Positions 4,766 to 14,044 of a DNA stretch of 59,556 bases are shown piece after piece. The notes beneath the pieces were generated by a model. It saw only the letters and a program-made list of their open reading frames with translations. It did no database searches and had not been told where the DNA came from. The DNA lies in NCBI GenBank assembly GCA_025937235.1, contig JAICRU010000007.1, forward strand, positions 1 through 59,556. Direction: 5' to 3'. Position 1 is the stretch's first letter. Each line of letters begins with the position of its first letter. Position numbers and translations under genes: made by a program. The DNA comes from Acidimicrobiia bacterium (GTDB lineage: Bacteria; Actinomycetota; Acidimicrobiia; Spongiisociales; ZC4RG35).

Positions 4766-4969
4766 TCACCGTCGGCCGGACCGACCCCTCCAGAACAACA
4801 GGCCGCCGGCCACCATCGCCACCACACCCCAGGCCACCCACGCCATCTCGCCGGTCATGAAGCTCTGCGGAGCAAAGGCGACGTCGAATCCCTGGAGGAT
4901 CCAGACCAATCCGATGATGGCCAGGACCATCCCCGCCGCCCTGCTCAGATCTCGCATCGCTCTTGACAT
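4766..4969 (-). CDS. Small membrane protein, 67 aa
   Basis: The 67-residue product has two predicted membrane helices, about 11-30 and 42-60, a basic N-terminus (MSRAMRDLSRAAG) and a basic C-terminus (WRGRSGRR). This is a common layout for small actinobacterial inner-membrane proteins of unknown function. It is divergent from the leader-peptide region of the aromatic biosynthesis gene, and the 31 nt to the leader ATG must hold both promoters or parts of them. Confidence 0.55.
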   Translation of the reverse strand: MSRAMRDLSRAAGMVLAIIGLVWILQGFDVAFAPQSFMTGEMAWVAWGVVAMVAGGLLFWRGRSGRR

Positions 4970-5000
4970 TCTCCATCAGGTCAGCGAATAATCAGCGCCC

Positions 5001-5075
5001 ATGACGACGAGCCCGACCTCGATCTCCGACGCCATCTCCCGGCGCTTCTTCGGGTTCGTCTATTTCGGCGCCTAG
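5001..5075 (+). CDS. Phe/Tyr-rich leader peptide
   Basis: A 24-codon ORF begins at ATG 5001 and ends at TAG 5073-5075, 69 nt before the aromatic biosynthesis fusion gene. Its last codons read RRFFGFVYFGA, so five of the last nine residues are Phe or Tyr. This is the composition of pheA-type leader peptides, where ribosome stalling at Phe codons reports charged tRNA-Phe supply. The peptide is short, has no domain, and its stop codon lies inside a perfect hairpin. There is no obvious Shine-Dalgarno. Function is inferred from composition and location. Confidence 0.65.
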   Translation: MTTSPTSISDAISRRFFGFVYFGA

Positions 5076-5136
5076 CGCCGATCCACCTCACCCCGCGCCA
5101 CTCCGTAACTCTTCACCCTTCGAACGCGCCGAGGCG
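5066..5136 (+). promoter_or_regulatory. Alternative hairpins between leader and aro fusion
   Basis: CGGCGC (5066-5071) pairs with GCGCCG (5075-5080) across the loop CTA, and the leader stop codon sits in this stem-loop. The same hexamer GCGCCG recurs at 5126-5131, so the first arm can pair with either copy. A third short stem, CGCC/GGCG (5127-5136), lies just before the fusion gene start. No T tract follows, so control by translation or Rho is more likely than an intrinsic terminator. Confidence 0.4.
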
Positions 5137-5144
5137 AACCCCAA

Positions 5145-7178
5145 ATGGACCAGAGAACAAATCCCAACCCAGGTGACATCGAACGGATCCGGGACGACAT
5201 CGACCGGATCGACGCAGACATCCTCAAGCTCCTCGCCGAGCGTAAGGCACACAGCCTTCGCATCGCCAAGGAGAAGGGGATCCACGATCGCCCCTCCCGT
5301 GATCAGACGAGGGAGGAGGGTCTCATCTCCGACCGCATCGCCTCCGGGATGGAGCATGACCTCGACTCAGGTCTGGTGAACCGGCTCTGGAGGGAGATCG
5401 TCAACGACTCGGTCCGGATCCAGCAGGAGTTCCTGGATCGCATGGAAGGCCCCGATTCGGCGGTGACCGTGGCCATCCAGGGCATCGACGGCTCCTACAG
5501 CCAACTCGCCGCCCAGCAGTACTTCGATCACAAGGGAACCTCGGTCAACTACGTCAGGTCGCCAACCTTCGCAGCCGCCATCGCTGCCGTGCAGCGGGGC
5601 GAGGCCGACGTGGCGGTCCTCCCCATCGAGAACACGACATCGGGTGCGATTTCCGAGGTCTACGACCTCCTCCTCGACAGCAACCTCCGTTTCGTGGGTG
5701 ACGTCCGGTTCCGGATACGTCATTGCCTGCTCGGGATCGAAGGCGCGTCGATCTCGGAGCTGCGCCGGATCTACTGCCATCCACAGGCGGTGGCCCAATG
5801 CTCCGAGTTTCTCGCCCAGCTCGACCATTGCGAGATCGTCTACTTCTCCGACACTGCCCTGTCCGGGCAGAAGATCCGTGATCTCGACGATCGCACCATC
5901 GCCGCCATAGCCAGTGAGGAGGCGGGGCGGATCTTCGGTCTCGACGTCCTCAAGACGGGGATCGCCAACCGCGACGAGAACTACACCAGGTTCGTCGTCG
6001 TCGCCCCCGAGCCGGCCCACGTGCCTGAAGGCGTCCCCACCAAGACCTCGATCGTGATGGCGGTCGGCAACCATCCGGGAGCGCTAATGGACGCCCTCGG
6101 TGTGTTCCACGACGCCGACATCAACCTGGTCATGCTCGAGTCACGGCCGATCCCGAACAACCCGCGAGAGGAGCTGTTCTATCTCGACTTCGACGGCAAC
6201 ATCTCGGATCAGTCGGTCGTCGACGTGCTCGACGTCCTGACCCGGCAAGTCCGTTTCATGCGGGTTCTGGGTAGCTATCCCTCCCGCGATCTCCGGCCCA
6301 AGCCCGTCGAGCGCAAGGTGAGACAGGTCATCCCCAAGGGCCGCTCGGCCCTGACCCAGCTCGAGCCGTTGCCATCCAGCCCTACGGGCTACCGGCTGGG
6401 CAGCCGGGGACACAAGGAGCAGAACACGATCGTCGAAGTCGCCGGGGTGAAACTCGGTGGCGAGGACCTCGTCGTGATCGCCGGGCCATGCGCGGTGGAG
6501 TCTTGGGATCAGGTGATGACCGCGGCCAAGGTGGTCAAGGAGAGGGGTGGCTCCATCCTCAGGGGTGGCTGCTTCAAGCCCCGGACCTCGCCCTACAGCT
6601 TCCAGGGGCTGGGCTTCGAGGCCCTGGAAATGCTGGTCGAGGCGGGCAAGGCCTATGGGCTTCCAGTGGTCACCGAGGTGGTGTCCCCCGAAGACGTCGA
6701 GGGTGTGGCTCGCAAGGCGGACATCCTCCAGATCGGCACTCGCAACATGCAGAACTTCTCGTTGCTGTCGGCGGTGGGCCGGGCCCATCGTCCGGTGATG
6801 CTGAAGCGGGGCATGAGCTCCTCGCTGGAAGAGCTCTTGCAGGCCGCGGAGTACATCCTCTCCGAGGGGAACCAGCAGGTCTTCCTCTGCGAGCGGGGGA
6901 TCAGGACATTCGAGACCTCGACCCGGAACACCCTCGATCTGAGCGCGGTTCCCGTGCTCCGGCAGCGGACCCATCTGCCTGTGATCGTGGACCCGTCACA
7001 CGCGGCGGGGGACCGTGACCTGGTCCCGCCCTTGGCACTGGCTGCCCAGGCGATAGGGGCTCATGGGATCATGGTCGAGATCCACCCGGATCCGGATTCG
7101 GCGTTGAGTGACGGCCCCCAGTCATTGACGCTGGATCAGTTCCGGGACATGATGGTGGCGCTGGGGCTGAGCAGCTGA
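5145..7178 (+). CDS. Chorismate mutase-prephenate dehydratase-DAHP synthase fusion
   Basis: This 677-residue protein joins three enzymes of aromatic amino-acid synthesis. An AroQ-type chorismate mutase occupies about 10-95 ([18 protein letters not shown]). A prephenate dehydratase follows at 106-288 with the catalytic TRF motif at 281-283. An ACT domain at 299-376 carries GALM (312-315) and ESRP (332-335), the signatures of phenylalanine binding. A class I-beta DAHP synthase occupies 425-675 with GPCAVES (447-453), LRGGCFKPR (472-480) and DPSH (616-619). One polypeptide thus holds the first step of the shikimate pathway and the two Phe-specific steps. Start ATG 5145 has no clear Shine-Dalgarno, which fits control by the upstream leader. 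Confidence 0.93.
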
Positions 7179-13903: not shown

Positions 13904-13926
13904 AAAAAACCCTCCGGGTGGGAGGG
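13904..13926 (-). terminator. Intrinsic terminator of the ilv attenuator
   Basis: Read on the minus strand, CCCTCC pairs with GGAGGG across CACCC and is followed by TTTTTT, a textbook Rho-independent terminator. It sits between the Ile/Leu/Val leader peptide and ilvB and is therefore the expected premature stop of an attenuator. The ilvB start lies 15 nt downstream. Confidence 0.85.
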
Positions 13927-13955
13927 TTGAGCGCACGCAGGTCTGTTTGCGCGCG

Positions 13956-14003
13956 CTACTCGATGAGAAGGAGTACCTGGGCGGCGGCGATCGGCTGCTT
14001 CAT
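13956..14003 (-). CDS. Ile/Val/Leu leader peptide of ilvB operon
   Basis: A 15-codon ORF reads MKQPIAAAQVLLLIE and stops at 13956. The run V-L-L-L-I near the end holds branched-chain residues that would stall a ribosome when charged tRNA is short. About 30 nt after its stop lies a perfect intrinsic terminator ahead of ilvB. Promoter, leader and terminator are in the order of classical ilv/leu attenuators. Confidence 0.75.
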   Translation of the reverse strand: MKQPIAAAQVLLLIE

Positions 14004-14015
14004 ATGCGGTTGCCA

Positions 14016-14044
14016 AGTAAACAACCTGGCCGTTCTCATGTCAA
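14016..14044 (-). promoter_or_regulatory. Promoter of ilvBN-leuABCD operon
   Basis: On the minus strand a perfect -35 TTGACA (14039-14044) is followed after 17 nt by TTTACT (14016-14021), an acceptable -10. Transcription would start at about 14008, just ahead of the leader peptide ATG at 14003, giving a nearly leaderless leader ORF. Confidence 0.65.

Follow-up and report, generated by a model that had tools for sequence, protein, structure and literature searches.

The window analysed here, a 59,556-nucleotide stretch of an Acidimicrobiia genome (contig JAICRU010000007.1), carries a gene that joins chorismate mutase, prephenate dehydratase (PDT), an ACT domain and DAHP synthase in one chain. 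The fusion unites the first step and the Phe branch of aromatic synthesis. The genome of the window (G000) is a close relative of metagenome-assembled Acidimicrobiia, with a 94% identical gene on JAICNB010000009.1. As the preliminary description had reported, a 24-codon ORF ending in ...RRFFGFVYFGA and a stop codon lies upstream of the fusion gene. The distance between the two is 69 nt, and a promoter lies so close to the ATG of the ORF (Table 1) that a leaderless or nearly leaderless transcript is predicted, with a 5′ UTR of 1–3 nt if there is any.

Table 1 Features of the leader region and of the ilvB attenuator in the window
Feature	Position	Strand	Remarks
Promoter TTGACA-18-AATAAT	4963..4992	+	11/12 consensus match; 8 nt upstream of leader ATG
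Leader peptide ORF, MTTSPTSISDAISRRFFGFVYFGA and stop	5001..5075	+	Kept in 16/16 fusion genomes with 20–25 codons and no frameshift
P1 5′ arm (GACGAGCCCGA), directly after leader start codon	5006..5016	+	11 bp with 5050–5060
Putative regulatory Phe/Tyr codons F16 F17 (G) F19 (V) Y21 F22	5046..5066	+	F22 invariant among relatives
P1 3′ arm, overlapping Phe codons	5050..5060	+	Folding, swap test, covariation
P2 hairpin CGGCGC-CTA-GCGCCG, leader TAG in loop	5066..5080	+	RNAalifold, compensatory changes
Untranslated spacer rich in C and poor in G, candidate region for Rho utilization	5081..5125	+	C exceeds G by 19 in 45 nt
Second GCGCCG, possible lineage-specific competitor for P2 5′ arm	5126..5131	+	In 5/16 relatives, 0.33 expected by shuffling
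Weak Shine-Dalgarno GAGG of fusion gene	5131..5134	+	10 nt before ATG at 5145
CM_2-PDT-ACT-DAHP synthase fusion, 677 aa, putative regulated gene	5145..7178	+	Domain content
ilvB attenuator, near-leaderless short ORF MKQPIAAAQVLLLIE and stop	14003–13956	-	Behind TTGACA box 14044–14039
ilvB attenuator terminator AACCCTCC-CACCC-GGAGGGTT and T tract	13928–13904	-	Just before acetolactate synthase gene 13889–12168

The features of the leader exceed what chance would give. Among the 876 short ORFs (15–40 codons) of the window, none but the leader has at least five F or Y residues within its final ten codons. No other short ORF in this 60-kb window has a strong promoter 6–10 nt before its start. A 6-bp hairpin spanning the stop codon is found in 12 of the 876, the leader among them. 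The earlier statement that the fusion gene has no Shine-Dalgarno (SD) sequence is too strong, since GAGG precedes the start codon in the window and an SD-like tetramer is found near the start in 15 of the 16 genomes that carry the fusion.

Conservation of the leader and its two helices

Using the N-terminal part of the fusion as a query against 149 related genomes, we have identified the full fusion in 15 genomes besides G000, with 46–95% identity in that part. A leader ORF lies 62–87 nt upstream of the fusion gene in all 16 fusion genomes of the order, and all 16 leaders share the tail [YFS]FG[AV]-stop. The Phe codon at stop-3 (TTC or TTT) is invariant, while the remaining positions drift among F, Y and others. 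Over the 16 leaders, the final ten codons specify F at 33% and Y at 10% of positions, and Trp at none. A TTGAC(A) box at the same spacing, with a -10 box 7–10 nt before the ATG, is present in 15 of 16 and is weaker in G009; in those 15, transcription would begin at the ATG or right beside it. The claim that a Phe/Tyr leader stands ahead of an aromatic fusion gene therefore holds across relatives: the ORF, the Phe codons and the stop hairpin are kept in every fusion genome, and loss of the ORF or of its Phe codons, which would have spoken against the claim, was not observed.

A covariance model of the element gives E < 1e-8 in exactly the 16 fusion genomes of the order, and its matches lie just upstream of the fusion except for one extra match on a small contig of G031. 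When 396 genomes of the phylum were scanned with the model, E < 1e-4 was reached in two, both already among the known genomes, and no further genome was found. No Phe leader is present at the marginal phylum matches L093 and L094. The same element before other genes or in wider lineages was considered and rejected, as the weak matches (E > 1e-4) mostly fall within coding sequence or come without a leader ORF. One sequence of G098 (L071, 1501–1572) reads ...RGFFASGFFGV-stop with the stop adjoining a GC hairpin (E 9e-4) but has no in-frame start codon; it is a decayed or a chance leader. Both the invariance of Phe at stop-3 amid drifting neighbors and the restriction of strong model matches to the fusion genomes support a reading in terms of phenylalanine. 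On these comparisons, it is very probable that the element is a conserved Phe-responsive leader regulator as far as its Phe-sensing part is concerned.

The tree indicates a single origin of the fusion (99/97 support). The fusion genes of three genomes of family f8 (L099, L103 and L105 in G088, G082 and G078, respectively) nest within those of the window's family, so the fusion and its leader may have been co-transferred horizontally. A sequence titled Acidobacteria (L036, JACZWZ010000031.1) matches G078 of the window's order and probably represents a mislabelled bin. With both its PDT and its DAHP synthase part, the query matches the clostridial genes L038 and L040, which suggests a similar fusion in Firmicutes. 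No convincing Phe leader was found before the clostridial fusion-like genes or the CM-PDT relatives that were checked.

Two helices were evident in the leader RNA. The perfect hairpin described earlier around the leader stop codon (P2) is indeed present, and it is the sole consensus structure predicted by RNAalifold for the 16 leaders, with 99% of cells paired. P2 has 5–7 bp across the 16 genomes, and two of its six pairs have changed on both sides; in one genome, a TGA stop is accompanied by a matching change. The other helix, P1, pairs the beginning of the ORF with its Phe codons. In a swap test, the two arms of each genome were compared with arms taken from other genomes. The native arms of 12 representatives pair at -16.3 kcal/mol and the swapped arms at -12.1 kcal/mol (z from -4 to -5; 0 of 20000 permutations as low), and eight representatives gave the same outcome. 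P1 is unique among the 28 segment pairs tested in showing clear covariation. Among the ten alignable leaders, one P1 column changes between A-U, G-C and U-A while the encoded residue changes between Val, Ala and Asp. With no ribosome on the leader, P1 would close its leaderless start as well as the codons that serve for sensing.

The preliminary description had instead proposed a switch in which the 3′ arm hexamer of P2 recurs 51 nt downstream, giving two exclusive pairings. The repeat exists at the position given, and it is more frequent than expected by chance and lies at a similar position where present, mostly 18–25 nt before the gene. As a conserved feature, however, the exclusive pairing does not stand, with GCGCCG in five and GCGCC in only seven of the 16 genomes; the conserved second structure is P1. 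The swap test is powerless for pairings of P2, including a mutually exclusive antiterminator, because the P2 arm hardly varies. Pairing with the second copy would be lineage-specific at most.

Classical attenuators in the same order

Classical Phe/Tyr attenuators, here called type A, precede stand-alone DAHP synthase genes in sister genomes (loci L125–L142 and L149–L172). At E ≤ 1e-3, the type A model matches 82 of the 121 genomes of the order that lack the fusion and not one of the 16 that carry it (P about 1e-7, Fisher's exact test, computed with 81). A DAHP synthase gene, often DAHPS-AroQ, lies downstream of type A at every inspected locus. Type A leaders include MNKHGFYYGYFFTGLSARAEGAR, MTSTYFAFFFFGPTPG and MHQTRFFAYFAFTGLRPGSA, each followed by a stop codon. 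Behind the last Phe codon of these leaders come a CCGGGC/GCCCGG hairpin and then an intrinsic terminator, CCCGGAGC..GCTCCGGGTTTT. At the gathering score of Rfam, neither the window region nor six type A loci gave a match; the type A family, present in 82 genomes, is absent from Rfam as judged by these loci.

Type A resembles the window leader in being, by prediction, leaderless or nearly so, in its Phe/Tyr codons, in its position before DAHP synthase and in the hairpin that directly follows its last Phe codon. It differs in having an intrinsic terminator, complete with T tract, and also a complementary segment for antitermination, and in lacking a helix between the start and the Phe codons (no equivalent of P1 was found in type A leaders, z +0.8). 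We considered whether the leader was inherited together with an attenuated DAHP synthase gene and rejected this origin. In the tree, the DAHP synthase domain of the fusion clusters with a stand-alone paralogue that has no detected Phe leader, apart from the genes regulated by type A; therefore, judging from sequence, the two leader types are analogous.

The window also contains a second, classical branched-chain attenuator before ilvB (13904–14044, minus strand). The presence of this ordinary attenuator implies that the lineage has not abandoned terminators generally.

Proposed output of the leader and alternative readings

Between the stop hairpin and the fusion gene, an intrinsic terminator (a hairpin and a U tract) was found in none of the 16 genomes, and the same scan detects 16 of 17 type A terminators. 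The earlier remark that no T tract follows P2 is borne out. The spacer, unstructured and 63–87 nt long in the 16 genomes, is rich in C and poor in G: in the window, 0.03% of positions show so large an excess of C over G, the background having a mean of 0 and an sd of 5.3. A rut-like stretch with more C than G, likewise untranslated and identified by composition only, follows the leader stop directly in all 16 genomes, where C minus G over 45 nt ranges from 15 to 27 and at most 0.25% of window positions are so high. Rho sites have no strict consensus, and the composition of the spacer is as expected for Rho loading sites. A Rho gene is encoded in the genome of the window.

Phe-rich leaders such as pheL sense charged tRNA-Phe. 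In the mechanism that we propose, a pioneer ribosome would start on the leader as the ORF emerges. When charged tRNA-Phe is ample, this ribosome would reach the stop codon and leave, P1 and P2 would close, the closed P1 would limit new starts at the leaderless AUG, and the naked C-rich spacer would load Rho, so that transcription ends before the gene. When charged tRNA-Phe is short, the ribosome would park on the last Phe codons, where the leader borders the spacer. The stretch still free would then be too short, or too near the ribosome, for Rho to use, and the fusion enzyme would be made. The input would resemble that of pheL and aroR, and the output that of tnaC. We give somewhat better than even chances to a leader-peptide regulator that responds to Phe starvation and acts through Rho-dependent termination in the spacer. 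The earlier suggestion of an unusual attenuator without a terminator, either translational or Rho-dependent, stands, and the evidence leans to Rho. A fuller proposal would make the element a new class of amino-acid attenuator: codon starvation in a leaderless ORF would gate Rho in place of an intrinsic terminator, P1 would shut the leader again once a single pioneer ribosome has passed, and the whole would have replaced a classical attenuator at the time of gene fusion. This is put forward tentatively, with the odds somewhat against it.

Alternatively, transcription might read through and stalling on the Phe codons might re-pair the RNA, opening the ribosome-binding site of the fusion gene. 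Control of this kind has been proposed for ermC-type systems and for mycobacterial polycysteine leaders, and leaderless short ORFs that are rich in an amino acid and lack terminators act in this way in mycobacteria (Canestrari 2020, via PMC9031893 and PMC13236596). In the genus of the window, the Phe region could pair with the SD region (GGGUUCG:CGAACCC in the fold of G001), and a GCGCC immediately upstream of the SD in seven of the 16 could also support a local RNA switch instead of Rho; the unstructured C-rich spacer, for its part, could have another purpose. However, the predicted accessibility of the SD and start codon is the same whether the ribosome is absent, stalled or at the stop (0.54, 0.56 and 0.56), and swap tests revealed no covariation between the Phe region and the SD. 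Sequestration of the SD by the C-rich spacer was rejected as well, as the pair shows no covariation and a deviation of the opposite sign (z +1.8 and +2.2, the native pairing being weaker than the swapped). We tentatively rank Rho-dependent control above SD occlusion because of the C-rich spacer, the lack of SD covariation and the unchanged SD accessibility, and we consider translational attenuation rather unlikely.

There is a small chance that the nascent peptide itself is responsible, with the C-terminus [YF]FG[AV]-stop stalling the terminating ribosome, perhaps when bound to free Phe. The last four residues are near-invariant (FG[AV]-stop in 16/16) and the stop codon lies in a hairpin, but the G-A/V residues are dictated by the hairpin bases, and arrest by excess product has the wrong sign for a biosynthetic gene. 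Furthermore, the tails of type A leaders (ARAEGAR, GPTPG and RPGSA before the stop) are unrelated to that of the fusion leader, although their Phe/Tyr run still adjoins the hairpin. It is highly improbable that the short ORF merely encodes a small protein, or is a spacer conserved by chance, with no control of the fusion gene. Against such a reading stand the Phe codons beside a covarying stop hairpin, the second helix made from the two ends of the ORF itself, the strict linkage to the fusion in 16 of 16 genomes, and the mutual exclusion with the classical DAHP synthase attenuator in the order.

Relation to known amino-acid leaders

The pheL-pheA system of E. coli is a classical terminator/antiterminator attenuator with an SD-led leader ORF. 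Its enzyme has no DAHP synthase domain, unlike the window fusion. The Phe-rich leader there precedes a CM-PDT gene (PMC11802643). In tnaC of E. coli, a 24-residue leader is followed immediately by a rut site, and a parked ribosome blocks Rho (PMC8429421). The window leader is similar in its 24 residues and in the rut-like stretch right after them; it differs in that tnaC responds to an excess of Trp, its peptide arresting the ribosome at the stop codon (PMC8429421), whereas the window leader would have to use starvation for charged tRNA-Phe. As for an arrest peptide of the tnaC type, the conserved FG[AV]-stop of the window leader is accounted for, in its G-A/V part, by the bases of the hairpin.

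Leaderless amino-acid leaders with Rho-dependent or translational output have precedents in mycobacteria (PMC4633059, PMC9031893, PMC13236596 and PMC12810186). The mycobacterial polycysteine ORFs are leaderless, as is predicted for the window leader, and like it they have a run of the pathway amino acid near the stop and lack a terminator hairpin (Shell 2015, PMC4633059; Canestrari 2020, via PMC9031893; candidates in PMC1262725). Polypyrimidine (polyY) Rho sites were suggested for cys leaders in 2005 (PMC1262725). Those leaders encode Cys, not Phe, and the alignable ones have no conserved terminator-like hairpin; a stop hairpin and a start helix, both present in the window leader, are not described for them (PMC1262725). 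The same survey of actinobacterial leaders reported no phenylalanine leader (PMC1262725).

The closest published case is aroR-aroF of Corynebacterium. The C. glutamicum attenuator, predicted in PMC4046766, responds to limitation of Phe and not of Tyr (Neshat 2014, via PMC11802643). Both it and the window leader are actinobacterial and place a Phe-Tyr-Phe leader peptide before a DAHP synthase gene (PMC11802643). The C. glutamicum case is reported as transcription attenuation of an operon with stand-alone aroF, whereas the window leader stands before a CM-PDT-ACT-DAHPS fusion, lacks an intrinsic terminator, carries its stop codon inside a hairpin, and has a helix from the start to the Phe codons. 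The leader is a new variant among known amino-acid leaders.

How attenuation can do without an intrinsic terminator has long been asked of the Actinobacteria, which are poor in terminators. One order now offers a natural pair, type A with a terminator in 82 genomes and the structurally distinct, terminator-less leader before the fusion in 16, never both. The helix between start and Phe codons adds a new component that can be put to the test. The pair lets one ask how a ribosome-mediated attenuator works, or is rebuilt, without an intrinsic terminator.
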